Source: Phyllobacterium zundukense (GTDB taxonomy: Bacteria; Pseudomonadota; Alphaproteobacteria; Rhizobiales; Rhizobiaceae). From it: DNA of 64,000 bases. Position 1 is the stretch's first letter. Each line of letters begins with the position of its first letter. Below the pieces are notes generated by a model, which saw only the letters and a list, made by a program, of their open reading frames with translations, searched no databases and had not been told where the DNA came from. The stretch covers positions 2,950,501 through 3,014,500 of the forward strand of contig NZ_CP017940.1 in NCBI RefSeq assembly GCF_002764115.1, written 5' to 3'. A program made the position numbers and the translations under genes. Shown here in pieces: positions 486 through 29,389 of the stretch.

Positions 486-1526
486 ATGGGAAAGCCAAGT
501 AAACGTATTTCCGGTCTTGGCGCGATGGTGACGATCGTGGCGATGCTTCTGTCGCTGCCCGCTGGCGCATCTGAATTCACATGGGGCGTCAATGGTCACC
601 CGCTGGCCTCGTACCATGGGGTGACCGCCGAACAGCAGATCTCCTATCTGAAATCGCTTGGGTTGACCTCGTATCGGGTCGATGTGCAAAAACTCGATGA
701 GCTGGAACGTCTGGATCGCCTGGTCACTGCAGCTGCCGAAAACGGAATTACGATTTTGCCGGTCCTCACGCCGGCGCTTGATCTGAAAGAGACTTCCCTC
801 GAGGAAATTTACGCCAAATCCCGCGCGCTGGCTTTCGTGACCGCATCGCATTTCAAAGACAGGATCAAGGTTTGGGAACTCGGCAACGAGCTTGAAAACT
901 TCGCCATCATCCAGCCGTGCGAAATGCGAGACGATGGCACGCAATATCCTTGCGAATGGGGCCTGGCAGGCGGCCTCTATCCGCTCGACTATTTTGGACC
1001 ACGCTGGGAAAAAGTGCGGACTGTGCTCAATGGCCTCTCAGACGGATTGACGGCAGCGGGCGGAGATTTCCGCAAGGCCATCGGCACTGCTGGCTGGGGT
1101 CATATAGGCGCTTTTCAGCGCATGAAACAGGATAAGGTCGAGTGGGATATTTCCGTCTGGCACTTCTATGGCGAAGATCCGGAATGGGCATTCAAGGCAT
1201 TGGCCGAATTTGGCAAACCGATCTGGATTACGGAATTCAACCACCCAAAAGGCAGCACCGACGGCGAAGACGCTCAGGCGGCCGGCCTGAAGAAGGCAAT
1301 GGAACGCATCCAGGAATTGCGCAAGACATATCCAATAGAGGCAGCGCATATTTATGAATTGATGGATGAGACCTACTGGGCGCCTGATTTCGAGGCCTAC
1401 ATGGGATTGATCCATCTGGAAAGCGACGGCGCCGGCAGCTGGCGCCCGGGAGGGCCGAAACCTGCCTACAATGTCGTGCGGGACATCATTCGCGGCGAGC
1501 GCCCAGCTGGGAGCCAGGGCCAATGA
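486..1526 (+). CDS. secreted glycoside hydrolase-like TIM-barrel protein
   Basis: 346 residues. An N-terminal hydrophobic stretch ending in LPAGAS (about residues 12-29) looks like a signal peptide, so the enzyme is probably periplasmic or extracellular. The body looks like a clan GH-A beta/alpha barrel: WELGNELENF places a candidate acid/base Glu at E135 directly after Asn, and WITEFN places a candidate nucleophile at E250, the usual Asn-Glu plus strand-7 Glu pattern of GH5/GH39-like enzymes. The exact GH family and substrate cannot be told from sequence alone. A Wzy-like polymerase starts 3 bases after the stop, so the likely role is trimming or shaping the polysaccharide made by this locus. 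Confidence 0.75.
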   Translation: MGKPSKRISGLGAMVTIVAMLLSLPAGASEFTWGVNGHPLASYHGVTAEQQISYLKSLGLTSYRVDVQKLDELERLDRLVTAAAENGITILPVLTPALDLKETSLEEIYAKSRALAFVTASHFKDRIKVWELGNELENFAIIQPCEMRDDGTQYPCEWGLAGGLYPLDYFGPRWEKVRTVLNGLSDGLTAAGGDFRKAIGTAGWGHIGAFQRMKQDKVEWDISVWHFYGEDPEWAFKALAEFGKPIWITEFNHPKGSTDGEDAQAAGLKKAMERIQELRKTYPIEAAHIYELMDETYWAPDFEAYMGLIHLESDGAGSWRPGGPKPAYNVVRDIIRGERPAGSQGQ

Positions 1527-1550
1527 TGTGTGGCTTCGCAGGGTGTAAAC

Positions 1551-3011
1551 ATGGCAACTAACGTCTTTGGTGTCCTGGTCGTCCTATTCGGTGTGCTGAT
1601 CCAGTTCATGCATCACAAATATGCGATCTATGGCATGCTTGCCTTGACGCTTTTCGGGGCGGCCGCCGCAGTTACACTGCCAGCGATGGGCGGGGCCTCC
1701 ATTCTGGTTGCCAACGTCTTCATGGTCTTCTTCGCTCTGCGGGTTTTGCGCATAACAGGATTGGCGCCTGCCATCAGCAGCCTGCTTTATCCCAGTACCG
1801 GCTTCTGGCTATTCCTGCTGATCATGTACGGGCTGATAGCGACCTTATTCTTTCCACGGCTGATGGCCGGCATGACCGAGACCATGGTTGTCCAGCGCCT
1901 TCCGGGAGGTTTGAGTCGTATCAGCCTCAATCCCCTGGGCTTTTCCAGTACACACATAACGCAGACGGTCTACGCATTGGGCAGTGTCATGTGTTTTGCG
2001 GCCTCCTTTGCGTTTTTCCGGATGCGCGGTGCCTATCACTACTTTCTCAGTGGCTTCTTCCTGCTTTGCGGGCTGAATGTCATCTTCGCACTGCTGGATC
2101 TTGTTACCTTTGCCACGGGTACGGCCGATCTGCTGGATTTCATCCACACTGCGAATTATTCCTTGATGACCGGTGTGGAGATGGGTGGTCTCAAGCGGAT
2201 CTCTGGCACGTTTCCCGAATCCTCGGCTTTCGCCAGCTTCACCCTGATTCTGTTTGCCATGGCCGCCAGTCTCTATCTCGACAATGTTCGACCTGTTATG
2301 TCGGGATTCTTCGCCTTTGCCTTCCTGGTATTGCTTGCACTGTCGACATCGGGAACAGCCTATGTCGGGCTGGTCATTGTTCTGGCTTTACTGATCCTCC
2401 AGTCCATCGCACCGGTCCTGTATGGCGGGAGAATGCGCAAGCCGCTCTTGATTTACGCCGGCAGTCTGTCAGTGCTCGCCATCCTTCTGCTTGTTGCTGT
2501 TCTTTCACCCGAGTTCGTGGACGCCGTTGCAACCTTTTTCGATGAAAGCCTGTTCGGAAAGCTGTCGAGCGACTCCGGCCGGGAACGCGGACACTGGAAC
2601 GAAGTAGCATGGAGCAACTTCATTGACAGTTTTGGCCTGGGGGTAGGAATCGGCGGCGCACGCGCCTCAAGCTATGTCTTCGTCCTGCTCTCGAATGTCG
2701 GTCTCCCCGGCGCGATGTGTTTCGCCCTGTTTGTGCTGTCCACCCTTTTCCGGCGAAACGTCGTCCAAGCCAGCTCGGAGAATCGGCACATTGTCCGCGC
2801 CATTCGGTGCGGGATGACCGCCAGCCTGGTCGCCGCTCTGCTGGTCGCAACGGTCTTCGACATGGGAATGCTGTTTTATGTGCTTGCAGGGGCTGCGGCG
2901 GTTGCGGTCTTCCCATCCACGCGCCGTGCAAAAGTGCAAGCGACATCAAAAAGCGGACGTACCGGCGCGGCTCAAGAGCCGCTGCGGCACGCCCGCCGTC
3001 TCATCGGGTAA
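1551..3011 (+). CDS. O-antigen ligase/polymerase (Wzy)-like membrane protein
   Basis: About 486 residues with some ten or more hydrophobic segments spread along the whole length and a long loop around residues 110-150. This is the layout of Wzy polymerases and WaaL ligases, which join undecaprenyl-linked repeat units in the periplasm. A conserved-looking loop near the C-terminal third contains SDSGRERGHWNEVAWSNF; Arg/His-rich periplasmic loops of this kind are typical of the family. I chose the ATG at 1551; an in-frame GTG at 1530, four bases after the preceding stop, would add seven residues. The family diverges strongly, so the polymerase-versus-ligase choice is open. It forms an operon with the upstream glycosidase. 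Confidence 0.7.
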   Translation: MATNVFGVLVVLFGVLIQFMHHKYAIYGMLALTLFGAAAAVTLPAMGGASILVANVFMVFFALRVLRITGLAPAISSLLYPSTGFWLFLLIMYGLIATLFFPRLMAGMTETMVVQRLPGGLSRISLNPLGFSSTHITQTVYALGSVMCFAASFAFFRMRGAYHYFLSGFFLLCGLNVIFALLDLVTFATGTADLLDFIHTANYSLMTGVEMGGLKRISGTFPESSAFASFTLILFAMAASLYLDNVRPVMSGFFAFAFLVLLALSTSGTAYVGLVIVLALLILQSIAPVLYGGRMRKPLLIYAGSLSVLAILLLVAVLSPEFVDAVATFFDESLFGKLSSDSGRERGHWNEVAWSNFIDSFGLGVGIGGARASSYVFVLLSNVGLPGAMCFALFVLSTLFRRNVVQASSENRHIVRAIRCGMTASLVAALLVATVFDMGMLFYVLAGAAAVAVFPSTRRAKVQATSKSGRTGAAQEPLRHARRLIG

Positions 3012-3028
3012 TCGCAACCCTCTGCTTC

Positions 3029-4366
3029 TCAATGTTCCCTGAAAGCCCGTGACATGCTGTCGACAACGGGCTTGGCCAGATATTCGAAGAATGTACGTTC
3101 ATGGGTCTGGATCAGAATATCGGCCGGCATACCCGGTGTCGGTGTAAAGCCGTGAATGCGCGCGAGTTGATCAGCAGGAATGCTGATACGGGCAAGGTAA
3201 ATCTCCTGCTTCACATTGCTCGTGGTATCCGTCATCGCGTCAGCTGAGACGTAATCGACGCGGCCATTGACAACCGGCGTGGTCCGCTGATTGAGGGCGC
3301 TCAAGCGTACATGTGCTTCCTGCCCTTGCTTCACTTCATCAATCTGCATGCGCGGTATCTGCGCCTCAATGATCAGGGGAACACCAGTCGGCAGGATTTC
3401 GATAATCGGCTTGCCGCTTTCGATAACACCGCCAGCCGTATGATAGTGCATTCTGACGATTGTACCGGAAACAGGTGCCTTCACCACCGTGCGGGTGAGG
3501 ACATTGTCCGTCTGCCGCGTTTGCTCGCGTACCGTGTCAAGTTCCGCCTCGGCACTCTGGATCTCATCGAGCGCTGCCTGCTTTTCGGTATCCTTGGTCT
3601 GAATCATCTCTTTCTGGAACTTTTCAATCTGGGCATTCACTTCCATGATTTCAGCGTCGAGCCGCGCTATCGTTCCTTCACCGTCAGCAACGGCGCGCTC
3701 CAGGACACTGACTTCCGAGCGGGCCATCAGACCCTTTTTGAACAGGGAATACTTCGCCTGGTATTCATTTTTCAACAAGCCAACCTGCGTCCGGGTTGCC
3801 GCAATCTGGGCATTGCGTCCTACGCGGCGAAACTCCAGCGCTGAGATGTTGCGCTGCATCATCTGTATTTCGTTGGCATATTTGGCATGAGCCGCATCAA
3901 AATTGTCGCTCTGGCTCTCGTTAACGGCGCGTATTTCGGGATTGCCGAGGTTCTCCATGATAATCTTTGGCGGCTGATAGCGATCCTCGCCGCGGACGAC
4001 CGCATGAAGCCGTGCAAGTATCGCTTCAAGGCGCGCCTGCCGCAAAAACAATTGCTGCGAGTTTGCACGCGCAGATGTCTCGTCAAGGCGAACCAGTTCG
4101 TCACCCTCCGTAACGCGATCACCCTCACGAACCAGAAGTTCCTTGATAATGCCGCCTTCAAGATGCTGAACGACCTTGTTTTTGCCGGTCGCAACGAAGC
4201 TGCCAGGGGCGATAACGGCGGCGGCAAGCGGCGCGGTTGCTGCCCAGGTTCCAAACCCGCCAAAGCAGACGATAATCATCAATGCGCCGAACTTGGTGTA
4301 AGGCTTGATTGATCGTGGAACGCCGTCATACCATTCCAGATCATTTACTGCACTTGTTGCGGCCAT
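3029..4366 (-). CDS. type I secretion periplasmic adaptor (HlyD/PrtE/PrsE family)
   Basis: 445 residues. One N-terminal membrane anchor (about residues 27-48) is followed by a lipoyl-like half (VVQHLEGGIIKEL), a long alpha-helical hairpin region, and the second half with VVKAPVSGTIVRM, the standard order for membrane fusion proteins of type I secretion. The protein links the inner-membrane ABC exporter to an outer-membrane TolC-type channel, which is not present in this window. I start at 4366, where GGGAGG lies seven bases upstream; an ATG five codons earlier has no such site. It lies 25 bases after the ABC exporter gene and is the last gene of the secretion operon. Confidence 0.9.
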   Translation of the reverse strand: MAATSAVNDLEWYDGVPRSIKPYTKFGALMIIVCFGGFGTWAATAPLAAAVIAPGSFVATGKNKVVQHLEGGIIKELLVREGDRVTEGDELVRLDETSARANSQQLFLRQARLEAILARLHAVVRGEDRYQPPKIIMENLGNPEIRAVNESQSDNFDAAHAKYANEIQMMQRNISALEFRRVGRNAQIAATRTQVGLLKNEYQAKYSLFKKGLMARSEVSVLERAVADGEGTIARLDAEIMEVNAQIEKFQKEMIQTKDTEKQAALDEIQSAEAELDTVREQTRQTDNVLTRTVVKAPVSGTIVRMHYHTAGGVIESGKPIIEILPTGVPLIIEAQIPRMQIDEVKQGQEAHVRLSALNQRTTPVVNGRVDYVSADAMTDTTSNVKQEIYLARISIPADQLARIHGFTPTPGMPADILIQTHERTFFEYLAKPVVDSMSRAFREH

Positions 4367-4391
4367 TCTCGTGCCTCCCATTCAATTCTTT

Positions 4392-6548
4392 TTATTCGGC
4401 GGCACTGATGCTCGGAACCGAACCTGCCTGTTTGTTTTTCTTCGAGAGTGCTTCCATAACTGTTGCCCGCGTACCGAACATCGTGACGCTGCCATTGCTC
4501 AACACCATGATCTTGTCGACACAGTTGAGGAGTGCTGGACGTTGCGTGATCGTCACTACGGTAATCTTGTGTTTCTTGGCATGGAACAACGCCTTGGTCA
4601 GAGCAGCATCGCCTTGCGAGTCAAGGTTCGAATTCGGCTCATCCAGTACGACGAGTTTTGGATTTCCGAAAAATGCGCGGGCAAGCGCTATTCGCTGTTT
4701 CTGTCCACCCGAGAGCGGCGCGCCGTCTGCCGCAACCATCGTCTCATAGCCTTGGGCAAACGTCGAAATCAGCTCATGGACATCCGCAAGCATCGCAGCA
4801 TCAAAGATCGATTGATCGCTGGCATCTTCGCGCATGCGGGCGATATTGGCCTTGATGGTACCCGGAAACAGCTGCACATCCTGCGGCAGGTAACCAATGT
4901 TCTCACCGAACTGCCGCTGATCCCAGTTCCGCAGGTCCATCAGGTCGAGCCTGACATTTCCCGATGTAGGCAGGATGGATCCGACCAGCATCTTGCCGAG
5001 AGTGGTCTTGCCCGCGCCGGAATTGCCGATAATGGCCATCGATTCTCCGGGCATCAACGTGAATGAAATGCCGTTCAGAATGACCTTCTTGTTGGGAGGC
5101 GGAACGTAGAGAATTCTTTCGACATCGAGGCGGCCCTGCGGATCCGGCAATCTGAGCCGGTCAAAATTCAGTGGTGAATTTTGCAGGAGACTGCGAATCC
5201 GGCCGAAAGCCGAACGGAATTGTATGAAACTGTTCCAGCCTTCGATTGCGCCTTCGATAGGCGCCAATGCACGGCCGGCGATAATGGATGCAGCAATAAC
5301 CATGCCGCCAGTCATTTGCCCGTCGATGGCCAGATGGGCACCCCATCCCAGCATTGCTACTTGTGTCAGCAATCGGGAACATTTGGAAATGGTAGCAAAG
5401 ACGATGTTGCGGTCCTGTGCCTTGACCTGCGACCGGAGTGAGCCGGCCATATCCCGGCCCCAGATGCGCACTGCTTCGGGGATCATCGCCAGCGCATTGA
5501 TAATCTGCGAGTTTCTCGACATGGAGTCGAGATGCAGCATGGCACGGCTTTGAAAATTGGTCGCATCGGCGAAAGACGCCGCTGTAGCGCGCTGGTTCAT
5601 AAAGGCAATAATCAGCAGAAGCAGCGCGGAAACAACGACGATATAACCGAGATGCGGATGAACAAGGAAGACCGCGACTACGAACAGCGGCGCGATTGGG
5701 GCGTCAAAGAACGACAGCAACGTCCCGGAGGTCAGGAACGACCGCAATTGCTGCAGATCGCCGAGAACCTGATAGTCCTTGCCGTTGCCTTGAAGGGATG
5801 CACGCGCTGCAGCACTCAAAATGGGCGCACCCAACTGGACAGCGACCTCGACCGCCGTACGCATCAAGATGAAGCGCCGTATGGCGTCAAGTATAACCTG
5901 GATTATAACCGCGCCTACGATGACGACTGTCAGCATGACCAGCGTATCCGCGGAGCGACTGGTGAGGACGCGGTCGGATATCTGGAAAAGATAAATGGGA
6001 ATGGCAAGAACCAGGATATTCAGGAATATCGTGAACCCCATCGCGATAATGAGGTTCCTGCGCACAGCGTTAACACCGTTCTGGAAACTCTGGCTGAAAC
6101 TGATCGTCGTGGCTCGTTTATGAAAACTGCCGCCCCCATTCCCGCCATTGCCAACGATATTATTGCCGTTTCCCGAGCCATTTCCGCCGGAACTGACGCG
6201 GGATTGCACGGGACCGCGGTCCCCTTCGATGATCTTGCCGACCTCCACGCTCGCCGGAATGGCAGATGTCAGTTGCTCAGAATTTGGTGCTGTTTCGGCA
6301 ACGGGTACGTCGTCGACTTCGGTGATTGGCTCGTTTGGTACCTCATCCACCTGCTGTGGCAAAGCATCCACAATCTCAGAGCCGGCCCGTCCCTCGGATT
6401 CAGTTTCCTCGCGGGAAATTTTTGAAATCGTGCTTTCCATCTCCGCGAGCAATTCATCCAATTGAATTCGCTCGTTTTCGCGGCCCGCCATGGCCCGCCG
6501 CGAGTTCTGGGAAATGACTCGCAAGTCGGCCTGTTCATCATATTTCAT
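4392..6548 (-). CDS. type I secretion ABC exporter (PrtD/PrsD-like) with long N-terminal extension
   Basis: 718 residues from the ATG at 6548, which has a GAGGAG site upstream; a longer frame would overlap the preceding gene. Residues 1 to about 170 are an acidic, low-complexity extension ending in a Gly/Asn-rich linker (GNGSGNGNN and GNGGNGGG). Then comes a six-helix membrane domain and an ATPase domain with Walker A GNSGAGKTT near residue 510, signature LSGGQKQ near 610 and Walker B VVLDEP near 635. PrtD-type exporters usually have about 570-590 residues, so the extension is extra; it has no C39 peptidase Cys motif. It probably exports the two repetitive proteins encoded just upstream. Confidence 0.9.
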   Translation of the reverse strand: MKYDEQADLRVISQNSRRAMAGRENERIQLDELLAEMESTISKISREETESEGRAGSEIVDALPQQVDEVPNEPITEVDDVPVAETAPNSEQLTSAIPASVEVGKIIEGDRGPVQSRVSSGGNGSGNGNNIVGNGGNGGGSFHKRATTISFSQSFQNGVNAVRRNLIIAMGFTIFLNILVLAIPIYLFQISDRVLTSRSADTLVMLTVVIVGAVIIQVILDAIRRFILMRTAVEVAVQLGAPILSAAARASLQGNGKDYQVLGDLQQLRSFLTSGTLLSFFDAPIAPLFVVAVFLVHPHLGYIVVVSALLLLIIAFMNQRATAASFADATNFQSRAMLHLDSMSRNSQIINALAMIPEAVRIWGRDMAGSLRSQVKAQDRNIVFATISKCSRLLTQVAMLGWGAHLAIDGQMTGGMVIAASIIAGRALAPIEGAIEGWNSFIQFRSAFGRIRSLLQNSPLNFDRLRLPDPQGRLDVERILYVPPPNKKVILNGISFTLMPGESMAIIGNSGAGKTTLGKMLVGSILPTSGNVRLDLMDLRNWDQRQFGENIGYLPQDVQLFPGTIKANIARMREDASDQSIFDAAMLADVHELISTFAQGYETMVAADGAPLSGGQKQRIALARAFFGNPKLVVLDEPNSNLDSQGDAALTKALFHAKKHKITVVTITQRPALLNCVDKIMVLSNGSVTMFGTRATVMEALSKKNKQAGSVPSISAAE

Positions 6549-6580
6549 GATTCTCGCGCTCCTCGCGCGTTCTTCTTTTT

Positions 6581-8611
6581 CTATGCGAGAACTGTCTGCA
6601 TGACGTCGACGGACTGGCACGTATCCGGAACGTGGACGGCCGGAGCGTGATCATCGCTGCATGATGAATCTGCTTCGTTGTCGAGGAATGCCACGACTTC
6701 GATGGCCAGTTGCTGGCTCTGGCCGGCTCCCGGATCAGATGCCGGTTGAGCACAGATAATGTCGGCCTGGATCAGAATTGCATCGGAATAGACGCCGCCA
6801 CCGACATAGGAAGTCCCGCCGCCACCCGTATCGTTGTCAACGATCGAAGCAATGTTGATCAAGGCATTCGAACCGGTGCTGATATCCCAGACCGTTTCCG
6901 ACGATGCGGTCAAAAGCGCATCCTCATAATGTGCGACATAGTCCGCATCGCCGAGGATGTTGGTCTGTTCGATATAGTTCACGTCGTAGACGTTGCCGGA
7001 GATGTAAAGCACCCTCAGACCTGCAATTCCCTGCAGGGCCTGATCGCCATGAAAACCATCAGGCATGCTGTAGCTACCGTTTGAGAGCCCGCTCATGGCC
7101 TCAAGGTAATGTTCGGGAAGCCCCGTGACCCAATTGGCCGTGTCTCCACTTTGAATACTGGCCGAATTCCACAGCAGATTGTCGCTCGTCGACAATTCAC
7201 CGTCATATTCGCCGGCCGCACCGCCCGTGGTGAACGTATCATTGTCAAACAGGATATTCGTCTGGAAGATGAAGTTGCCGTTGTACATACTTCCCCCGAT
7301 CATGACCAGATCGTAGGAATTGCAAAGTTCCACAAACGACGCCGAATTCAGCAGCATATTCCCGCCCGTCACGATCGTGGTGTAGGAGCCGGTGGCTGAA
7401 AGGACATGTGCGTCGTTGTCTGAGAGGAAACTGTACTGCGAGACCCAGTTCATCTGGATCAGATCGCCGTTGACAACCGTGATCTGCCAGTTTTGCGGAA
7501 ATACCGGCGCATCGTCGGACGGGCCATCCTGCTGGCCATGATCCGCCTGCTGCAGGAAGCTGGCGATATTCATTGCGTTGGTTGACGGCTGGCATCCTGC
7601 CTGTTGGCCTGAAAACCCGTTCTGGAATGTATCATTATCGCTGTATGCGTTGGTCTGAACGATCGCATCGATATTATAATAATTGCCGGTAACGGCAAAA
7701 TGCGCGCCAACGGAGCCGAGGCTGTTCAAAAAGACCTCGTTCACCAGCAGATTGCAGCCGGCCTGGACCTCGACGGAACCGACGATCTCGGTGCCATTGA
7801 TGACCACGGATTTGGTCGATGTCACGACCGCCGGTGAGCTGTCGTCGTCCGTCTGCTTTAATTGTTCTGGCAGATAGTCATCGAGCTTTGGCGCTTCGGA
7901 ACTCTCGTCACCATTGACATAAAGGCCTGCCGGAGCAGTGACGACGGTCACACCGGGTGTACTTGCGAGCGGGCCTTCTGCTGCTGCCTGGATGTTCGCC
8001 GTTTGATTGGCGAAGAATTGCGCCATTTCCGCGCCGGACCCAGGTATGCTGTCCTGGGTAAATGGCTCCGAAATCGAAAGGGCGCTCGTCGTCAGGGTGC
8101 CGAAAGCCGCTTCGTCGACAAAATCCACGTTCACGGGTGCATGATTGCCCATGATGACGACATCGTTGTCTTCCATATGATTGATCTGCTGGACGGCAAC
8201 TGACGTCGTTCCGGGCGCTGGTCCGAAATGCGGGGTCAGTTCGCCTGACCTTTCGCCCGCATGCGAGTCGCTGGAACCAGACGTCTGCAATTTCGGCGCC
8301 TGGTGGTGGTGTATTCTCATACCCGCGATGTGGACCTCGATGGGATCGATATCCACCCATGGCATCATCACTTCCCCAACAGGGGACCAAGGTGTCGGGA
8401 TATAGTCTAAATTGGGCTGAAATGATCCAAGATCGAGTCGCTGGCTCGGATCCGTTTGAATTGTCAGGATGTCGTTGAGATGGGGATCTTTGTCCGGCGT
8501 TGCATTGAACTCACGGTACTCGACCCGCGCTCTCGCTGCCTCGATTGATGTATGAAAATAACCCACGAAGTGCGCAATGGATTCTGAAATCTGATCACCA
8601 AATCCGAGCAT
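6581..8611 (-). CDS. large repetitive probable type I-secreted protein
   Basis: 676 residues, very acidic and poor in Lys/Arg, with no N-terminal signal peptide, as expected of type I substrates. The C-terminal two thirds contain about four and a half degenerate repeats of roughly 80 residues. Each has a Gly-x-x-Tyr strand, then Ile-x-x-Gln-Thr-Asn, then Asp-x-Asp, and later an Asn-x-Leu-x-Asn-x-Ala-Ser-Ile segment; examples are YIEQTNILGDADYV and FIFQTNILFDNDTF. This suggests a stacked beta-solenoid. The start at 8611 follows a GGGGAG site. It lies 32 bases upstream of the ABC exporter. Classic GGxGxD RTX nonapeptides are absent. I do not know a named family for it; surface or matrix adhesin is an inference. 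Confidence 0.65.
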   Translation of the reverse strand: MLGFGDQISESIAHFVGYFHTSIEAARARVEYREFNATPDKDPHLNDILTIQTDPSQRLDLGSFQPNLDYIPTPWSPVGEVMMPWVDIDPIEVHIAGMRIHHHQAPKLQTSGSSDSHAGERSGELTPHFGPAPGTTSVAVQQINHMEDNDVVIMGNHAPVNVDFVDEAAFGTLTTSALSISEPFTQDSIPGSGAEMAQFFANQTANIQAAAEGPLASTPGVTVVTAPAGLYVNGDESSEAPKLDDYLPEQLKQTDDDSSPAVVTSTKSVVINGTEIVGSVEVQAGCNLLVNEVFLNSLGSVGAHFAVTGNYYNIDAIVQTNAYSDNDTFQNGFSGQQAGCQPSTNAMNIASFLQQADHGQQDGPSDDAPVFPQNWQITVVNGDLIQMNWVSQYSFLSDNDAHVLSATGSYTTIVTGGNMLLNSASFVELCNSYDLVMIGGSMYNGNFIFQTNILFDNDTFTTGGAAGEYDGELSTSDNLLWNSASIQSGDTANWVTGLPEHYLEAMSGLSNGSYSMPDGFHGDQALQGIAGLRVLYISGNVYDVNYIEQTNILGDADYVAHYEDALLTASSETVWDISTGSNALINIASIVDNDTGGGGTSYVGGGVYSDAILIQADIICAQPASDPGAGQSQQLAIEVVAFLDNEADSSCSDDHAPAVHVPDTCQSVDVMQTVLA

Positions 8612-8722: not shown

Positions 8723-9616
8723 TTATGATAGGTCGTCGCCAGTATTGGTCTCGATTGTGCCAGAGTTGAACTCGACATTGTTCTGCAGGAGATTTGCACC
8801 CTGAACGATTGTCTGGTTGAAAGCCTCAGCTGACTGGCTAATGGAAGCGTTTGCCGCGCTGGAGCCGATCACATCGTGACCTGCTTCAACACCGCCGTCG
8901 GAACCCTTGCCACCACCATGGCCGCCAAAGAAGCTGCTCTCCATGCCGCCCCATCCGCCGCCGCTGCCACTGTCAATGCCGTCGCCAGAATGTGCAGTGC
9001 CGCCGGTTGCACTCAGTGATACGCTGCCCGAATTGGCCTGGCTGATCTGGGAAGCCTGATCGTTATCGACAAGATCGAGAACCTGGTTAACAGCAAAGTT
9101 GGTGCCGCTGCCGGCAAAACTAACCGCGAAATTAACGTCATTGCCCGGATTGTAATCGATGTCGCCACCGGCGACGAAGATGTTGTCGAACGTATTGCCG
9201 TACAGATCAAGATCGGCAAAGTCATCGTCAGTAGGCAGATAGCCTTCAAGATCCACACCTACGTCGACATTGACGCAGACGTCAGTACTGTTCTCATTGA
9301 CATTGAGATTGCCGTTGAAGTTGCCGTTGGCATTGAGGTTGCCGTTGGCATTCAGATTGCCATTGCCGTTGCCATTGAGATTGCCGTTGCCATTCCAGTT
9401 CTCTGAGCTGGAATACTGATCCTGGCTCTGACCCTGGTCTTGTCCCTGACCCTGGCCTTGTCCCTGACCCTGACCTTGTCCCTGACCTTGAAGCTCTAGC
9501 TGTCCCTGACCCTGGGCTTGCAACTGAAGAGCCAGTGCAGCAGCTGTCGCAGACGCATCCGCTTCAGCTGAAGAATCGGTTGGATAAAAATTGTATTGAT
9601 TGTTCTTGCTAGACAT
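8723..9616 (-). CDS. Gln/Gly- and Asn/Gly-repeat protein, candidate type I-secreted matrix protein
   Basis: 297 residues. The start at 9616 is set by GGAGGAAT upstream. After a short Ala/Gln segment come a Gln-Gly dipeptide tract (about ten repeats, near residues 36-65) and then an Asn-Gly/Asn-Leu/Asn-Ala alternating tract (about 75-110). A more ordinary acidic half follows and ends in a Gln/Asn-rich segment (NQTIVQGANLLQNNVEFN) that resembles the repeat unit of the next gene's product. No signal peptide or membrane segment is visible. The alternating polar tracts are prion- or amyloid-like in composition. It is the first gene of the secretion operon, so it is probably exported by it. Function is unknown to me. 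Confidence 0.6.
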   Translation of the reverse strand: MSSKNNQYNFYPTDSSAEADASATAAALALQLQAQGQGQLELQGQGQGQGQGQGQGQGQDQGQSQDQYSSSENWNGNGNLNGNGNGNLNANGNLNANGNFNGNLNVNENSTDVCVNVDVGVDLEGYLPTDDDFADLDLYGNTFDNIFVAGGDIDYNPGNDVNFAVSFAGSGTNFAVNQVLDLVDNDQASQISQANSGSVSLSATGGTAHSGDGIDSGSGGGWGGMESSFFGGHGGGKGSDGGVEAGHDVIGSSAANASISQSAEAFNQTIVQGANLLQNNVEFNSGTIETNTGDDLS

Positions 9617-17979: not shown

Positions 17980-18058
17980 AGCAAAGCACCTGCCTTCTCG
18001 AGATCGCACCACGACCAGAAATTGCCATTTCACCCAACTGCTATTGCCCGGGGTATTT

Positions 18059-18322
18059 ATGCGTCACCGCCTGCAGACATTTTGCCCTTCGAAGACGGTG
18101 CACTCGCGCATCGTGAATGCGCTGTGGATCGAGAATGGTGGTACGCCCTGGAATATGCCGCCTGATTGGGAGCCCGACCGCGCCTGGGCGTCACAGCTCG
18201 ATTTGAACCTCATACCCAATCTCGGCCCGATGTCCGTTGCAATTCTGGAGGAATGGCTCGCCGCTGGTGACGACGAAGATCCAGATGAAGAAGACCAGGA
18301 GCAGCCGGAGCAAGAGCCGTAG
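18059..18322 (+). CDS. small hypothetical protein with acidic tail
   Basis: 87 residues, start ATG at 18059 after a CGGGG stretch. The N-terminal half is basic (MRHRLQTFCPSKT), the middle reads NLIPNLGPMSVAILEEWL and the last ~18 residues are almost all Asp, Glu, Gln and Pro. No family is recognised. It lies 79 bases after the sugar transferase on the same strand and might share its transcript. Confidence 0.45.
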   Translation: MRHRLQTFCPSKTVHSRIVNALWIENGGTPWNMPPDWEPDRAWASQLDLNLIPNLGPMSVAILEEWLAAGDDEDPDEEDQEQPEQEP

Positions 18323-21601: not shown

Positions 21602-22342
21602 CTATACTCGCAGTTTGCGCCACTGCGTGGTCTCGTTGAACTGCCAGTCGGCGAAATCTGAGGTACTCTCTTTCGGGGAGACCGGTTTCTTGCGTTCAAG
21701 CAGCACGTCAAGCAAAGCTTCGGCATCCTCGTGCTTGATATTGCGGATATGGGGTTTCAGCCGTTCTGCCGCCTGATCTATATCGGGCGATACCACATCG
21801 AAGATGCGCCGCCAGGTGCGCTCCTTGAAAAAGACAGCGTCGGCTTTCGTGCGGATGAAACCATGTTCCTCGGCAGTGATCGCGCCAGCAGCCAATGCCG
21901 CATCGAGCGTTGTATCGATCGTGACCATGGCTTCGCTGAAAGCGACGTAGCCGAACTCGGCCGGAGCATGCACCTGCGCAACGGCGGCATCGTCCTCCAG
22001 GCCGCCGAAAGCATAGCGTTCAAACACCTCGCCAATGCCGATCATGCCGAACGGATGGCATTCGGCAGCGCGCAAAGCGCCCATGCTGGCAGCGCCATAA
22101 ACCGTAGCGCCCGCCGACAATGCGTGCAGGATTTCCTTGTGCCAGACGGCGGCGACATCCTCGAACCTCCCGTCAACCAGGCCGATGACGCGAAAGCCCT
22201 GATCCACCGCGTGGGTGATGTCGCCGCATTTCGCCGGGCCACGGCAGGTCAGCGCATATTCCGGCAGGACACGGTCTTCCCCGGCGCGCACGGGAACGAA
22301 CTCCGTTCCGGAAAGACTTGGGCCTGCGAACAATATCTTCAT
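21602..22342 (-). CDS. tfuA: TfuA-like protein, YcaO partner (putative peptide thioamidation)
   Basis: 246 residues. TfuA-like core features are KILFAGPSLSG at the N-terminus, VIGLVDGRFEDVAAVWHKEIL and the strongly conserved YGAASMGALRAAEC segment. The name comes from the trifolitoxin cluster. TfuA proteins are known partners of YcaO in thioamide formation, for example thioglycine in methanogen McrA and thioviridamide-type peptides. It starts 8 bases after the YcaO stop with AGGAG upstream, so the two are translationally linked. The C-terminal ~60 residues (after EDAEALLDVLLERKK) are a charged tail of unclear role. It is the last gene of the putative RiPP operon. Confidence 0.88.
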   Translation of the reverse strand: MKILFAGPSLSGTEFVPVRAGEDRVLPEYALTCRGPAKCGDITHAVDQGFRVIGLVDGRFEDVAAVWHKEILHALSAGATVYGAASMGALRAAECHPFGMIGIGEVFERYAFGGLEDDAAVAQVHAPAEFGYVAFSEAMVTIDTTLDAALAAGAITAEEHGFIRTKADAVFFKERTWRRIFDVVSPDIDQAAERLKPHIRNIKHEDAEALLDVLLERKKPVSPKESTSDFADWQFNETTQWRKLRV

Positions 22343-22350
22343 CGCCGCTC

Positions 22351-23607
22351 CTATTGCCGCAGCATGGCGTTAAGCGCCCGTCCGCCGAAGCGATGCTTGC
22401 GGATGCCTGCCGGGCTTTCAAGCTCATTCACAAGAACGCGGCAAACCGACATGCCATAGTCCTCACCGCCAAGCGGCACGACGACAACGCTGCCAATGCC
22501 TCGCTGGCGTAGCGGTTCGAGATAGGTTTCGAGACTGGCACGCAGATGTGGCTCCGGCTCCTCGAAACGCCAGTGATCGGCGGGATCTGCGTGAATATAG
22601 ACACCGAGATCGGGTGCGAGGCGCTGGTGATATTCCGACGGGTCGAAATCATCGCGCGCGCCGGAAATATTGGTGATGCGCGTCTGCGCCGCCTCGGTGA
22701 TTGCCCGCATCGCTGCGACACGCGGCGACAAATGGCAGCCATAGCCGGCAGCCAGGTCGAAGTGCAGATAAGTGCCGTGCTGCGTGGCAGGGCTGATCGT
22801 CGCCATGAAGACGGGCAGGCCGATATCCGACGTCACGTTGAACAACCGCAGGACAAAGTTTGCTCCGGCAATCCTATCCGCCAGCCAGTCAATGCTGCTA
22901 TCGGCAAAAACCGCCGGATCGACGCAGCGCGCCTGCACGCCGGCGTCGCGCTGGAAGCGCCACAACTCGGTCGCATCGCGCTCCACGCGCTCGCACAATC
23001 CGTGAATGACCGCTTCAAGCAGGCAGTTGCCGGAGGCGAGGCCGTCCGTCGACTGGCAATAGTGCCAGGATTGCCGCGTCGAGGTAAAATCGAGCGAAAC
23101 GAGTTCGCGCGGCACGAAGACCGGCTTCTGCTTCAACAGATCGAAACCTTCAAGCCAATAATCGGTCTCGTCCGGCCCGGCTTCATCAGCGCCGCGCATC
23201 AACAGCATGCGGCCGTCAAATACCGTATGGCCGGCGTCGAGTAATTCGCGGCGGCTGGCGGCAAAGGAGACAAGCGGAATACCTTCGGCAATGGCGATTT
23301 CAGCGGCTTCCATCACGGCGGAAGCCCGCGCATGGGCGGCGCTGACACCCTTTCCCTGGCTGACAGCCAGCGTTCGGCTGTTGGGCCGGACCGCCATCCA
23401 CACCGGAATGCCGATGCGGTCGAGGCCGGTGACTTCGGCCATCCGCACAATGCCCAAACGAGAAAAGTGCGGCCGCAACCGGTTCACGGTTTCGTCCGCA
23501 TCAATCAATCGCGTCGACGAAGGCTCCCCGGGGCGGAAAGCAGAACGAAGGTCCGCTTCGTCTGCCGCCAGCCGGTCAAGAACCGGAATCTCGGCCAATG
23601 GTTTCAT
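22351..23607 (-). CDS. YcaO-family peptide backbone-modifying enzyme
   Basis: 418 residues from the ATG at 23607 (GGAG six bases upstream). YcaO enzymes use ATP to activate a backbone amide. ATP/Mg-binding elements visible are AVMEAAEIAIAEG (E-x2-E), the central STDGLASGNCLLEAVIHGL followed by ERVERDA, and a late AAQTRI segment. The C-terminus ends KHRFGGRALNAMLRQ and lacks the Pro-x-Pro-x-Pro tail of azoline-forming YcaOs, and no E1-like or ocin-ThiF partner is nearby. With TfuA adjacent, thioamidation rather than azoline formation is the best inference. The substrate is probably the repeat precursor whose gene ends 77 bases upstream. Confidence 0.9.
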   Translation of the reverse strand: MKPLAEIPVLDRLAADEADLRSAFRPGEPSSTRLIDADETVNRLRPHFSRLGIVRMAEVTGLDRIGIPVWMAVRPNSRTLAVSQGKGVSAAHARASAVMEAAEIAIAEGIPLVSFAASRRELLDAGHTVFDGRMLLMRGADEAGPDETDYWLEGFDLLKQKPVFVPRELVSLDFTSTRQSWHYCQSTDGLASGNCLLEAVIHGLCERVERDATELWRFQRDAGVQARCVDPAVFADSSIDWLADRIAGANFVLRLFNVTSDIGLPVFMATISPATQHGTYLHFDLAAGYGCHLSPRVAAMRAITEAAQTRITNISGARDDFDPSEYHQRLAPDLGVYIHADPADHWRFEEPEPHLRASLETYLEPLRQRGIGSVVVVPLGGEDYGMSVCRVLVNELESPAGIRKHRFGGRALNAMLRQ

Positions 23608-23683
23608 TGCCGCTCCATCAGCCCGCAAGGTACGCATTTATTGCAAACTATCCGAGTGCCGGACAACGCGTTTGCGCTATTGT

Positions 23684-24271
23684 TCAGTGTAACGCTGGAC
23701 TGGCTGAAGACAACCTTTCCGATGGATCGCTGCGGCCGTTAGCTGCAATGACCATATTCATCATGGCAGGACTGGCTGACGACAGCCGCTCCGAAGGATC
23801 GCTGCGGCCGTTGGCTTCAACAATCATACCTGCCATTGCAGGACTAGCCGACGACAGCCGCTCCGAAGGATCGCTGCGGCCATTGGCTTCAACAATCATA
23901 CCTGCCATTGCAGGGCTGGCTGACGACAGACGCTCTGACGGCTCGCTACGGCCATTGGCTTCAACAATCATTCCTGCCATTGCAGGACTAGCCGACGACA
24001 GCCGTTCCGAAGGATCGCTGCGGCCATTGGCTTCAACAATCATACCTGCCATTGCAGGACTAGCCGACGACAGCCGTTCCGAAGGATCGCTGCGGCCTTC
24101 GACGACAATCAAATTTTCACGCAGACCGCTAATCGACTCGAAAAACTCGCTGCCTGCCAGTCCAGACGAACCGATGACGTCCCGATCAAGACACTCCACA
24201 GTCCGCGTCTCCAGATCCACCAGCCAAAGCTTGTTGGTTTCCGGTTCATCAATGATGTAAAACTTTGCCAT
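23684..24271 (-). CDS. putative RiPP precursor with six tandem core-like repeats
   Basis: 195 residues. Residues 1-58 are a leader-like region (MAKFYIIDEPETNKLWLVD at the start). Residues 59-195 are six tandem repeats of 24 residues: five complete and the last cut at 17. Each begins GRSDPSERLSSASPA; copy 3 has Glu for Asp, and copy 5 has a changed tail (Met-Met-Asn-Met-Val-Ile-Ala). The gene lies just upstream of ycaO-tfuA on the same strand and shares its leader with the neighbouring small gene at 24383-24631. This is the organisation of a multi-core ribosomally made peptide. It lacks Cys in the repeats, so lanthionine or thiazole chemistry is unlikely; backbone thioamide fits YcaO-TfuA. The start has AAAGG nine bases upstream. 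Confidence 0.85.
   Translation of the reverse strand: MAKFYIIDEPETNKLWLVDLETRTVECLDRDVIGSSGLAGSEFFESISGLRENLIVVEGRSDPSERLSSASPAMAGMIVEANGRSDPSERLSSASPAMAGMIVEANGRSEPSERLSSASPAMAGMIVEANGRSDPSERLSSASPAMAGMIVEANGRSDPSERLSSASPAMMNMVIAANGRSDPSERLSSASPALH
23687..24097 (-). repeat. six tandem 72-bp repeats encoding the core-like peptides
   Basis: Units at 24026-24097, 23954-24025, 23882-23953, 23810-23881, 23738-23809 and a shortened 23687-23737. Most copies are near-identical at DNA level, indicating recent expansion or gene conversion. The third is the most diverged in bases while keeping the peptide, so selection acts on the protein. Confidence 0.9.
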
Positions 24272-24382
24272 GCGAATAACCTTTCAATGAAGGAGAGCCC
24301 ACATGGCAAAGGTATGACGATTCTTCTGGAGATCAACAATCAATTTTGATTATATTTTATTATGCTCCGGCATCCGTTTTCC

Positions 24383-24631
24383 TCAATCGTCAGGATCAGT
24401 TATAGAAGATCTCGATCCAGGTTCCGGCCGAGTATTTGTTGCGATAGCGAGATTTATACCCTTGATTGTCGTAATGCCGTGCTTTCGCGCGTTTTCGACA
24501 ATTTGAATCAAATCGGAATCGTTGGCAGTCTTTAGGTCAGCTTCAGGCAATTCCGTGACCGATCCTTTTTTTACATCGACAAGCCAAAGTTTATCTTTGC
24601 CAGTTTCACCGATTATAAAATACTTCGCCAT
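24383..24631 (-). CDS. second putative precursor with homologous leader
   Basis: 82 residues from the ATG at 24631 (AGAGGGG upstream). The first 22 residues match the leader of the repeat precursor: MAK-aromatic-aromatic-Ile-Ile-x-Glu, then KLWLVD at the same distance. The middle is a helical segment (DLIQIVENARKHGI), and the C-terminus reads ATNTRPEPGSRSSITDPDD. The Asn-x-Arg-x-(Asp/Glu)-Pro then Arg, Ser-Ser pattern loosely matches one repeat of the other precursor (ANGRSDPSERLSS), so it may carry a single diverged core. Alternatively it is a leader-only paralogue that regulates or titrates the enzymes. It sits between the regulator and the repeat precursor. Confidence 0.7.
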   Translation of the reverse strand: MAKYFIIGETGKDKLWLVDVKKGSVTELPEADLKTANDSDLIQIVENARKHGITTIKGINLAIATNTRPEPGSRSSITDPDD

Positions 24632-24685
24632 GCAGTTGACCCCTCTGTTCAGGTTGGAAGTGGAATACAAATTGGAAGTGGAAAA

Positions 24686-26713
24686 TTAGTGGAATCCTGC
24701 CTCACGCAGGGAAGTTTTGTATTTCTCGCGATGCTCGGGCAGTCTGAGACACATGCTTTTTAACCAGTCATCGATTTCAAAATCTGGAGTGTCTTCCAGG
24801 GCCTGCTTTCTGCATTCAACTGCCTTTTCGCGCTCTCCCAACATGGCCCAGCAAGCGGCCATGAGCCGCGCAGCTGCACGCGGATTTTTCATCCGCTCAA
24901 GGAAGCTGATCGCCTCAGCATAGCGATCGAGGTAATGAAGTGTTCCTGCCCCCACCCAATAGTAATAATCCGGGGCAAGCGGATTGTGGGCGATGGCCTG
25001 CTGAATTTTTTCCAGCGCTTGATCGAGCCAGCCATAATGCGTCAGCGCATCGGCATAATCCGCAAGCAGGTCAGCATGTTGCGGGTTGATGGACTCGCCC
25101 TGGTCGAAATATTCGAGACTATCATCGAACTTGCCTAGATACATGCTGATCGTGCCAAGTTCGCGCAAAGGCCGCTCATCGTCAGGATCGGTCGGAGCTG
25201 CCCTCTTGGCAATCTGCTCACCCTCGATGAGGATATTCTTTTCGCTGCGAGCCAGAACCAACCATTCCTTCTGCATCGTTCGCGCGATACCGCTGAGAGC
25301 CGGCACGAAATCCGGCGAGGCGGTCAGGGCGTTCTTGAAGGACTGGCGTGCCTGACGCAATTTCGGAAGGTCAAATTTGTCGATCTCCCGCTTGCCTATG
25401 AGATACCAGTAGTAGGCATTCGGGTCCTGGAACAGCTTGTTGTAGCGGTCAAGTTCCGATTTCTCGATGACCGAGACGACCGACAGGATGATCCGGATCG
25501 ACAGCTGGCGGTATTGCTGTTCGGGCAGGACATAGTCGAATTTCTGTTTCTCGGCCCAGACGATTTCCTGCGTAGCGACATCGACCAGCTTGACCGAGAG
25601 GAAGCAGAAGCCATCCCGGCGCACGATCTTGCTGTCGACAGCATAATTGACGCCGAACTGCTCATTCAGCCCGCCAAAATTGTCCACCGAGGACTCCGTT
25701 ACCACCCTTTTCGACGTATAGGGCGCGACGACGGACAGCGTGCGCAGGCGACAAAGCCCGATGGTGATATCGTCGACCAGCGATGCGGCGAGCTGTTCCA
25801 TCGGATCTGCCGCATTGTGCGGCATATAAAGGACAATGACTCTCGGCAGCCCAGCCTGTTTGTTTTGCTCGATCTGGTTTGCAGCGCGCATCGGCTGGGG
25901 TAGCTGGATCTCCGCGCCGTTGTTGTACAGCGGGCTCGTTGGCTGCGGCGGAACGAGGAGTCCGCGTGTTGTCGCCGGTGAAAGCTTGGGCAAGAGCTGC
26001 TGATAGAGCTCTATCGTTTCCTCTTCCGGCTCTACATCCAGATCATCGCGCAGCTTCTTGGTGCATTCACGGAAGGTCCGCTCGACCTTGGCGATGAGAC
26101 CGAGCTGCGATGCGGTCTGCATCAACGTGCGGTAGCCGACTTCCTGATAGGGATCGATCTCGATCAGCTTGCGGGCGCATTGGCGCTTTTCGTCAATGCT
26201 GACGCCGACCGGCTTGTTGACCATTTCCAACAGCATCGTGATCAGGTCGTCGCGCAATCTGACGCGCTCGATATCCAGCCACTCGTCGAAATCGGAATTT
26301 TGCGGTTCGTTCTGGGCGAGGAGATCGCCGGTGTACAACTCGCAAAGGCCAAGGGCGGACTCAATATCGCCCCTTCGCGCATAGTTCATATAGTCGAGAA
26401 GATCGATGCGGAGGAGTTCGGCCTTCACCTGCGACAGATTGAGATAGACATAGGTTGCATCGCCCTGAACTAGGTTCAGGCCGTATTGCTCCTGGAACTT
26501 GCGGATGCGCGCCAGGCTCTGGCGCAAATTCATGGAAGCATGGGCCTGATCCGTGTCGGACCAGAAGATTTGTGAGAGCTTTCCGCGCGAAACGGAATGG
26601 TTTTCATTTTCCAGTAGCAGATAGACGACGATCCGCAAAAAGTTCGCGGGTACACGCGGGACCAGTTGCCCGCCCAGACTAACAGTTGCCTCTCCAAAAA
26701 CCGCCAGCTTCAT
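24686..26713 (-). CDS. SARP/BTAD-type regulator with C-terminal TPR repeats
   Basis: 675 residues. Order: an OmpR-like winged helix (about 1-95, ending ATYVYL), a bacterial transcriptional activator domain (about 96-245, SDFDEWLDIERVRLRDDL and EIDPYQEVGYRTLMQTA), a linker, a TolB/FlgO-like alpha/beta domain (about 290-420, RVIVLYMPHNAADPMEQLA), then TPR helices (about 440-660, PLAPDYYYWVGAGTLHYLD). BTAD regulators often control secondary-metabolite genes. No kinase, nucleotide-binding or membrane part is seen, so the TPR/TolB-like region is the probable input. It is first in a minus-strand run that continues into the two precursors, ycaO and tfuA, with 54 bases to the next start, and is the likely cluster regulator. 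Confidence 0.85.
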   Translation of the reverse strand: MKLAVFGEATVSLGGQLVPRVPANFLRIVVYLLLENENHSVSRGKLSQIFWSDTDQAHASMNLRQSLARIRKFQEQYGLNLVQGDATYVYLNLSQVKAELLRIDLLDYMNYARRGDIESALGLCELYTGDLLAQNEPQNSDFDEWLDIERVRLRDDLITMLLEMVNKPVGVSIDEKRQCARKLIEIDPYQEVGYRTLMQTASQLGLIAKVERTFRECTKKLRDDLDVEPEEETIELYQQLLPKLSPATTRGLLVPPQPTSPLYNNGAEIQLPQPMRAANQIEQNKQAGLPRVIVLYMPHNAADPMEQLAASLVDDITIGLCRLRTLSVVAPYTSKRVVTESSVDNFGGLNEQFGVNYAVDSKIVRRDGFCFLSVKLVDVATQEIVWAEKQKFDYVLPEQQYRQLSIRIILSVVSVIEKSELDRYNKLFQDPNAYYWYLIGKREIDKFDLPKLRQARQSFKNALTASPDFVPALSGIARTMQKEWLVLARSEKNILIEGEQIAKRAAPTDPDDERPLRELGTISMYLGKFDDSLEYFDQGESINPQHADLLADYADALTHYGWLDQALEKIQQAIAHNPLAPDYYYWVGAGTLHYLDRYAEAISFLERMKNPRAAARLMAACWAMLGEREKAVECRKQALEDTPDFEIDDWLKSMCLRLPEHREKYKTSLREAGFH

Positions 26714-27859: not shown

Positions 27860-29389
27860 ATGGCAAAACCATTGTCAACTAAAAAAGATACAATCGACGA
27901 AGATCGTTCACAAAATGTCAAAAAGCCTGGCGGTTTGCTTGACCAGTGGAATCTCGTGCGAGCCGCTACACAGGACGATAGATTGAGCCGTGGAGACATA
28001 GCGGTTCTCGTCGCCATCCTTCAAAGGTACTGGCCGAAATTCGGCAACGGATGGGCTTCTATAGACATGCTTGTTGAGATGAGCGGTATGAGCCGTCGCC
28101 AGATTGTTCGCGTTCTCCGATCGCTCCAAGACACTGGTTATGTAGACGTCCTGGCCAAGGGGCGTCGTGGAAGGGCAACCGTTTTCTTGCCGAACTTTTC
28201 ACTTGGATATCGATTCAGTGACATGCATGGCACCGAATCAAACGATAACAATTTAGGTGACACAGATGGCACCGAATTGACCGTATTGGGTGACATAGAT
28301 GGCACCGTATCACCCCTAATCGGTGACACAGATGGCACCCCCTCCTACTTACGTGACCGTCCTACAAGGGACGGGAATACGGTAAGTAGAACTGAAGATG
28401 CCCATGGCATTGCGCAGCTTGGCCCTGTGGGGGCCGCCGCGCTGCCAAGGGACCCGAAGGAAGAGTTTGATGAACTCTATAAAGCTTATGGCTTGCGACG
28501 GAAGCGTGCCGAGGCAAAGTCTGTCTATGAGAAGATAGCACCCGATGCTGACCTGCATGCCAGGATGGTTGAGGCTGCCGGCCACTGGCACTCCTCATAT
28601 GAAGAGAACGGCACACACATAAAGTGGCGAAAGCACCTGCATTCATGGCTTGCCAAGGAGTGCTGGGAAGAAGATCCGCCTGTCGCATATGTGGACGCCA
28701 AGGAAGCCGCGATCGCCAAGGCCAAGGACCGCGGGCCTAAGCCGGCCGCACAAATAGTGGCCATCCTCCCTGACAGGAATCTTCACGAGATGCGTATTGT
28801 CGGAGTTAGCCAGGAAGGCAACGCCAATTCAGAGCAATGGCACGTCATTCTTGAATTGGCCTATATCGAGGGCGAACTCGCGGGACAGACTGTTGTGCAT
28901 GACTTGCACGTATTCAACGCAGCCGGTCCAGCGAAGGGGAACTCCGCTTGGACTGTACTGTGCAAAATCACCGAATTGTCATTCAACATAAACGATCTAA
29001 AGGGCCGTGCTGTCAAAGTGATGAACTTGCCCGATGGTGGCATAGGATTTGCCCGGTCCTTCCTGCCGCCATCAGAAGAGATTGTCGAAGTTGCGATCGT
29101 TGGTGCGAAGGCATCTCCTGTCGAGCCAAGCTCGGACGAGGAGTGTCTCGAAATCCTCATGATGACGGATGACGACATAAACCTTGAATGGTTCGCCATG
29201 CTGAAATCCAATGACATGAAAGAGCAAGCGGATGATCAGCGAAGGATTGCAAGTCTGCTCACCGCCGTTGGTGTTACGGGCGTTGAAGATGAACGAGACC
29301 TGATCGGTAAGAGACTGAAAATTATAAAGTGGGGCAAGCAGGTGAAGGAGTTTCTGCCCTATCAGGGAGATATGGCTCGCGCCGCCTAA
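27860..29389 (+). CDS. replication initiator-like protein (lambda O type) with intragenic iterons
   Basis: 509 residues. Residues ~30-115 form a winged helix (LSRGDIAVLVAILQRYWP, then MLVEMSGMSRRQIVRVLRSL) like those of phage replisome organisers and RepA-type initiators. Residues ~120-165 contain a repeated Gly-Asp-(Thr/Ile)-Asp-Gly-Thr peptide that is the by-product of four DNA iterons. A second domain (about 195-270, EEFDELYKAYGLRRKRAEA) and a C-terminal domain (about 310-500) follow, possibly an oligonucleotide-binding or helicase-loading part. AAGGAG lies upstream of the ATG. It is the first gene after the left att, and the layout matches an origin placed inside its initiator gene. Exact family not recognised. 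Confidence 0.7.
   Translation: MAKPLSTKKDTIDEDRSQNVKKPGGLLDQWNLVRAATQDDRLSRGDIAVLVAILQRYWPKFGNGWASIDMLVEMSGMSRRQIVRVLRSLQDTGYVDVLAKGRRGRATVFLPNFSLGYRFSDMHGTESNDNNLGDTDGTELTVLGDIDGTVSPLIGDTDGTPSYLRDRPTRDGNTVSRTEDAHGIAQLGPVGAAALPRDPKEEFDELYKAYGLRRKRAEAKSVYEKIAPDADLHARMVEAAGHWHSSYEENGTHIKWRKHLHSWLAKECWEEDPPVAYVDAKEAAIAKAKDRGPKPAAQIVAILPDRNLHEMRIVGVSQEGNANSEQWHVILELAYIEGELAGQTVVHDLHVFNAAGPAKGNSAWTVLCKITELSFNINDLKGRAVKVMNLPDGGIGFARSFLPPSEEIVEVAIVGAKASPVEPSSDEECLEILMMTDDDINLEWFAMLKSNDMKEQADDQRRIASLLTAVGVTGVEDERDLIGKRLKIIKWGKQVKEFLPYQGDMARAA
28218..28339. repeat. four iterons inside the replication gene (putative origin)
   Basis: Consensus GTGACAYAGATGGCACC at 28218-28234 (diverged centre), 28257-28273, 28290-28306 and 28323-28339. 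The last three are spaced exactly 33 bp, about three helical turns. Including the preceding G where present, the unit is an imperfect dyad, GGTGACA facing TGGCACC. Spacing in multiples of three keeps the reading frame. Four dyad iterons within the initiator gene are the arrangement known from phage lambda O/ori. Confidence 0.75.

Follow-up and report, generated by a model that had tools for sequence, protein, structure and literature searches.

A probable multi-core YcaO–TfuA peptide unit with two precursors in Phyllobacterium zundukense, and the order-wide leader family to which it belongs

We find that a 64,000-nucleotide stretch of the genome of Phyllobacterium zundukense, a bacterium of plant-associated kind (contig NZ_CP017940.1, positions 2,950,501 to 3,014,500; hereafter the window), probably encodes a leader-guided, multi-core unit of the type that makes ribosomally synthesized and post-translationally modified peptides (RiPPs), with a YcaO–TfuA enzyme pair and two precursors. 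The unit lies on the minus strand at 21602–26713. In transcription order it comprises a BTAD/TPR regulator (675 amino acids, aa), an 82-aa protein, a 195-aa repeat protein, YcaO and TfuA, separated by 54, 111, 46 and 8 bases (from open reading frame (ORF) coordinates); the eight bases between YcaO and TfuA are 22343-22350. The parts are as follows.

21602..22342, minus strand: TfuA, 246 aa, the proposed sulfur-delivery partner of YcaO (PF07812, E 3.2e-40)
22351..23637, minus strand: YcaO, 428 aa, the proposed ATP-dependent backbone-modifying enzyme (PF02624, E 6.6e-63)
23684..24271, minus strand: repeat precursor, 195 aa, leader and six cores (ORF, repeats, genus family)
24098..24271, minus strand: leader of the repeat precursor, residues 1-58 (conserved in an alignment of 20 precursors; coordinates from the ORF)
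24023..24094, minus strand: unit 1, RSDPSERLSSASPA followed by the spacer MAGMIVEANG (this and the next five by unit pattern)
23951..24022, minus strand: unit 2
23879..23950, minus strand: unit 3 (RSEPSER)
23807..23878, minus strand: unit 4
23735..23806, minus strand: unit 5, with the divergent spacer MMNMVIAANG
23684..23734, minus strand: unit 6, truncated, RSDPSERLSSASPALH and then the stop
24383..24631, minus strand: small protein, 82 aa, homologous leader and short tail, the proposed second precursor (in 18/18 genus loci; leader homology)
24686..26713, minus strand: BTAD/TPR transcriptional regulator, 675 aa, first gene of the unit (PF03704 BTAD, E 2.4e-13, plus TPR matches)

An earlier annotation made from the letters alone (the sequence-only reading) had listed two small proteins with a shared N-terminus, a YcaO and a TfuA, the last two eight bases apart. 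This is borne out by the ORFs, by Pfam and by 39% identity between the small proteins (alignment A2). The same-strand regulator at 24686-26713 had been left out and is part of the unit. Six 24-residue repeats had also been described behind a 58-residue leader. The leader and five full repeats stand; the sixth is truncated to 16 residues. The 195-aa protein thus consists of a leader of ~58 residues, five full 24-residue units beginning at Arg60, and a 16-residue unit that ends the protein. Tandem Repeats Finder reports a 72-bp period at 23697-24097 (5.6 copies, score 571). In 1000 shuffles self-identity never exceeds 0.19; the sequence itself reaches 0.62 at its best offset. Matches of this protein to unrelated Pfam and NCBIfam families were rejected, as they lay below or just at cut-off and no single stretch passed alone.

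The codons of the repeats point to the part of each unit that matters. Across the six cores (RSDPSERLSSASPA), codons vary at 13 of the 14 positions, 12 of them silently only, and the residue changes at just one (Asp/Glu). Within the five full units (10 pairs), the cores differ by 42 silent and 4 replacing codon differences and the spacers by 13 silent and 20 replacing; the pairs are non-independent, and both sets of counts are descriptive only. Because the core codons vary almost wholly silently and the spacer varies at the protein level, this pattern indicates that the functional unit of the repeat precursor is about 14 residues, RSDPSERLSSASPA. A short stem, CCTGCAATGGCAGG, at the core/spacer border accounts for four terminator-like matches within the repeats (window 23829-24058, minus strand), and is probably a by-product of the codons; promoter- and terminator-like sites carry no weight in our reading. 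We repeated the silent and replacing counts for 11 further multi-core genes, with variants of the unit pattern that likewise miss degenerate units and restrict positions 1 and 4–7. In codons 1–7, silent differences are in clear excess (silent:replacing) in L092 (69:28), L088 (33:8), L223 (80:14), L225 (25:0) and L226 (22:3), and in weaker excess in L090, L098, L101 and L222.

Repeat number and spacing vary among relatives. We found at least 19 relatives of the repeat protein among the best 8000 candidates scored from ~5.8 billion proteins; within that set, the five with a named organism are all Phyllobacterium, and 13 of the at least 19 have all counted units spaced 13 residues apart (RSDPSDRAFSFDG type). 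Unit spacings of 19 and 26 residues also occur among the genus loci, four of which have a single core (L103–L106), and this presence of single-core and multi-core forms in one genus supports our reading. The unit pattern, which fixed R1, restricted positions 4–7 and misses degenerate units, yielded 174 units, among them 87 distinct 14-mers; some proteins entered this count under two ids. At the positions left free by the pattern, the 87 distinct 14-mers have S2 in 68, D3 in 57, A8 in 62 and S10 in 76. Together with the silent-site pattern, the varying number and length of the repeats support the proposal, already made in the sequence-only reading, that each precursor yields several peptide copies.

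The 82-aa protein, present in all 18 genus loci compared, is likely a second precursor and the counterpart of the rhizobial single-core precursor, an assignment suggested by its leader, which is homologous to that of rhizobial precursors adjoining YcaO–TfuA, and by its position. Its tail holds a possible degenerate single core, RPEPGSRSS. When such tails were scored against a profile built from 33 distinct repeat cores, p <= 0.05 was reached by 22 of 35 (median 0.016, from shuffles; the tails are related and non-independent). The predicted structure of the protein has strands at 4–8, 15–19 and 24–28, helices at 30–35 and 39–51, and a low-confidence tail.

The leader defines a family that extends across the order Hyphomicrobiales. 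Small proteins of rhizobial YcaO–TfuA loci share the leader of the window's 82-aa protein; in Rhizobium sp. TH2 the order is BTAD regulator – small protein – YcaO – TfuA, and the best YcaO matches on named plasmids have ~43% identity. The leader profile alone matches in 49 of 297 family genomes, all 49 of which also have TfuA somewhere, and 50 of the 58 leader matches lie 1309–2212 bases upstream of a same-strand TfuA match. The other eight matches are those of L143 to L150; in L148, YcaO adjoins the leader and a TfuA lies on the opposite strand. Matches were found in 33 of 397 genomes of an order-wide draw and in 1 of 289 of a class-wide draw (the window's own). A reversed-protein control gave 0 matches among 10339 ORFs. 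Across the order, proteins matching profiles A5/A7 are found next to BTAD, YcaO and TfuA genes; note that the window's small protein was included in these profiles, and its own match is by construction. Among 85 leader-bearing loci, the BTAD regulator is directly upstream of the leader gene in 82, YcaO is downstream in 77 and TfuA in 75. These 85 come from 89 loci examined, the others being L003, L107 and the decayed copies L094 and L097, which have no leader-profile match. Because the 85 were pre-selected as holding a leader or YcaO, the count of 50/58 is less biased.

Several loci of this family have features of their own. A similar-looking, ALARLVxYA-like protein of 74 to 91 aa lies downstream of TfuA in the rhizobial cassettes L108 (8001-8231), L112 (8009-8233) and L109 (8002-8277); the two that were tested gave no convincing Pfam match, and such proteins are absent from the genes conserved in the 18 Phyllobacterium-type loci. 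On Rhizobium rhizogenes plasmid pC5.7c (L111, 5775-11377), two YcaO genes start ~3.4 kb apart, each with its own precursor, the second of which has three repeats. In Ensifer canadensis pT173e (L110, 5678-6088), the precursor is apparently split over two reading frames; since its frame looks broken, neither A5 nor the YcaO tree includes L110.

Within the genus, precursor and enzymes are inherited together. Precursor homologues found widely without enzyme neighbours would have counted against the sequence-only reading, and in the genus it withstands this check: of 20 genomes, 18 have precursor and TfuA together, and G303 and G308 have neither. When 17 relative loci and 10 kb of the window were compared by clustering their ORFs (75 aa or longer), the five-gene set (regulator, 82-aa protein, repeat precursor, YcaO and TfuA) was present in 18/18 loci. 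Beyond these five sense genes, the next clusters are antisense ORFs or neighbours in at most 15 of the 18. The reported lack of an adjacent protease or exporter also extends to the genus, with none among the genes conserved in 18/18 loci (smaller or distant genes would escape this comparison). G297 and G311 have a second copy with regulator and precursor, and a YcaO remnant of only 34 and 42 matching residues. The repeat precursor is found in 5 of the 297 family genomes, all of the genus, and TfuA in 86. A6 does not include P0025 (the window's own), P0054, P0056 and P0057 (partial).

The cores fall into types that, by eye, track the YcaO tree (RSD-like and SG-x-x-D-like). On a quick-method tree of 81 rows, RSD-type cores lie outside a clade of 52 rows (support 88); they comprise eight RSDAASHHYFPNR-type cores in L223, six RSDAASHIFYG-type in L222, seven RSEPAAHILYG-type in L230, and the Phyllobacterium units. 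Cores of the 52-row clade mostly resemble SGGYMDG, SGHVDS, SGLFD or SGKLE; L232, basal in this clade on a long branch, is yet RSD-like. The highest non-genus YcaO identities among the fetched loci are those of L229 (50%) and L223 (49%), both with repeated RS-AASH-type cores. A protein search with the L223 precursor returned four unnamed proteins. Tandem core expansion occurs in both core groups. Single- and multi-core states, labelled by hand for 80 rows (29 multi, 51 single; L003 unlabelled), require 10 changes by parsimony on this one quick tree, which contains a doubtful long-branch pair (L003, L228) and includes only YcaO rows aligned over more than 280 residues (L107, for one, falls short). 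Natural variants carry between one and eight counted cores, spaced 7 to 45 residues apart, and represent at least two core types. This makes leader recognition, multi-core processing and the substrate tolerance of thioamide-forming enzymes directly testable.

Both enzymes resemble the thioamidating type. By sequence, the window's YcaO is nearest to the archaeal thioamidating YcaO MJ1094 among solved structures (6pe3/6peu, E 3.7e-24). The aligned stretches, MEA-E, GLASGN-EA-ERDA and RA-TE-AQ-R, are presumably ATP-binding. The window's YcaO exceeds the cut-off of the general YcaO domain model TIGR00702. The best NCBIfam models for both proteins are of the McrA thioamidation type, and both scores lie under the equivalog cut-offs: 195.6 bits for YcaO (cut-off 365) and 160 bits for TfuA against ThioGly_TfuA_rel (cut-off 235.2). 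TfuA also matches PDB 6xp8, a TfuA-domain protein (E 3.9e-27). As in the class of TfuA–YcaO thioamidated RiPPs, a YcaO of the ATP-dependent type adjoins TfuA, and a leader-core precursor gene is adjacent and co-inherited.

We propose that the BTAD/TPR regulator controls the unit and that the YcaO–TfuA pair recognises the leader shared by two paralogous precursors, the 82-aa protein with probably a single core and the 195-aa protein with six. The pair would modify the backbone of each ~14-residue core (RSDPSERLSSASPA), most likely with one or more thioamides, a chemistry that we infer from its presence. TfuA would handle delivery of sulfur from a housekeeping carrier. General cellular proteases may then release several copies of a short peptide, which might be exported and take up their function. 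Leader binding, per-core thioamidation and protease release are proposed because of the MJ1094 alignment, the McrA-model scores, and the published work on thiovarsolin B and on ThiS-like carriers considered below.

Several results weigh against this explanation. Codons 1–7 lack a silent excess in L224 (5:9) and L230 (25:28), as do codons 8–13 in L092, L090, L222, L224, L225, L226 and L230. Since the silent excess is weaker in these other multi-core genes, fewer than 14 residues may be conserved in them. The window's own tail, RPEPGSRSS, which is included in the 35, has p 0.19 against the core profile. Because the predicted structure of the 82-aa protein is poor (mean predicted local distance difference test score 57.7), leader recognition gains no structural support from it. 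Furthermore, 66 of 111 TfuA sites in the family sample lack this leader, L144, L146 and L147 have leader and YcaO with no TfuA within the fetched 14 kb, and L143, L145, L149 and L150 have regulator and leader with neither enzyme in the fetched 14 kb. The genomes of these last four loci have TfuA elsewhere.

Among other readings, one adds a function and is compatible with the explanation above: the peptide may be a signal sensed by the adjoining BTAD-TPR regulator, with YcaO–TfuA serving its maturation. Gram-positive bacteria have peptide systems with TPR receptors, and the regulator here bears TPR repeats, stands directly upstream of the leader gene in 82 of the 85 selected loci, and is paired with a precursor without nearby enzymes in L143, L145, L149 and L150. 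No immunity or export gene was recognised among the genes conserved in 18/18 loci. Yet a regulator beside a biosynthetic operon is ordinary, and the 18/18-locus set includes no gene for export or uptake; we regard this reading as rather unlikely. An extended form, which we hold to be unlikely, is an order-wide peptide-signalling family in which YcaO–TfuA would mature interchangeable, repeatedly duplicated cores into thioamide peptides, for which the TPR half of the regulator would serve as intracellular receptor; core and regulator would, as a consequence, diversify together.

YcaO might also modify the cores in another way, for example by forming Ser-derived oxazolines or amidines through nitrogen attack, with a different role for TfuA. 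The cores are Ser-rich and without Cys (the only Cys of the window precursor is residue 27, in the leader), three cassettes have no nearby TfuA, and the available portions of PMC13063428 describe several modification types among YcaO enzymes. We nevertheless consider such chemistry quite unlikely: TfuA follows in 75 of the 85 selected loci, the genes conserved in 18/18 loci include no partner cyclodehydratase or dehydrogenase, and both the solved relative closest in sequence and the top NCBIfam models belong to the thioamidating type. It is very improbable that the 195-aa protein is an ordinary structural or secreted repeat protein and that YcaO–TfuA acts on another target, such as a cellular protein, for although folded proteins can be YcaO substrates (E. 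coli uL16; PMC13063428), the leader is homologous to single-core proteins beside YcaO, precursor and TfuA are jointly absent from two genomes, and core type, judged by eye, follows the YcaO tree. A leader-guided, multi-core YcaO–TfuA unit remains our preferred explanation.

Other features lie around the unit and elsewhere in the genome. Glycosyltransferases flank the cassette in the window; they were rejected as tailoring enzymes because only 6 of the 18 genus loci carry them. A 92-aa acidic-tailed ORF (window 18044–18322, plus strand), convergent with the cassette, is syntenic in 15 of 18 loci, counting the window; being on the opposite strand and without a Pfam match, it was not counted as a member. 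Other short tandem repeats lie at 9295-9491 and 28256-28339 (periods 6, 12, 18, 24 and 33 bp; Tandem Repeats Finder). The window's genome also has a second, distant YcaO–TfuA set (L003; G000:C6:52000-64000, 1487-8501) that is preceded by a cyclase/AAA regulator; after the set come a 406-aa protein bearing an HEVGH motif and another of 250 aa, and Pfam matches neither of these two.

Going by the title of Breil et al. 1996, tfuA was reportedly first described with the production of the ribosomal peptide antibiotic trifolitoxin. Thioamitides of the thioviridamide type involve further tailoring enzymes, a kinase/lyase and a decarboxylase; no enzymes of this kind are among the five genes conserved in 18/18 loci or the nine Pfam-scanned window proteins. 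The pair that thioamidates a glycine of McrA in methanogens (portions of PMC5589413) is the source of the best NCBIfam models for both window enzymes, and its kind includes the nearest solved YcaO, MJ1094. Unlike that pair, however, the window's enzymes score below both curated cut-offs, and their evident substrate is a small precursor. According to parts of a 2026 paper (PMC13063428), thioamide-forming YcaO outside high-sulfide settings tends to rely on a TfuA hydrolase together with a ThiS-like thiocarboxylated carrier.

Thiovarsolins are the closest known system. In the available text of PMC6511847, the varAYT genes of Streptomyces varsoviensis (precursor, YcaO and TfuA) suffice for thiovarsolin B, which is thioamidated and comes from a repeated core. 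Like the window, this system is described there with several imperfect core repeats, a YcaO–TfuA pair, and a repeat number that varies among relatives. In contrast, the thiovarsolin core is APR/GPR, whereas the window's 195 residues contain neither tripeptide and have units of RSDPSERLSSASPA; the window also differs in its leader and in having a second small precursor and a BTAD/TPR regulator. No VarO-type heme oxygenase, amidinotransferase or ATP-grasp gene is among those conserved in 18/18 loci (the neighbour genes of the other 17 loci were clustered, not annotated one by one), and Pfam gave no VarO-type match in nine window proteins.

Rhizobial clusters are a further point of comparison. 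Genome mining reported in the accessible sections of PMC8120280 found over 500 YcaO–TfuA clusters in Rhizobium, which resemble the window in having glycosyltransferases near YcaO–TfuA. The precursors named in those sections are berninamycin-like, CCRG-2-like, albusnodin-like and Nif11-like, not of the window's leader or repeats. The same sections of this 2021 survey state that all TfuA–YcaO thioamidated RiPPs then known came from Actinobacteria. We found no description of the window's leader or repeats in the titles, abstract openings or consulted passages of the open-access papers searched, though they may appear in the supplements of PMC8120280. With this leader family, 45 of the 111 TfuA sites in the family sample, part of a large proteobacterial YcaO–TfuA pool, gain a recognisable substrate family.

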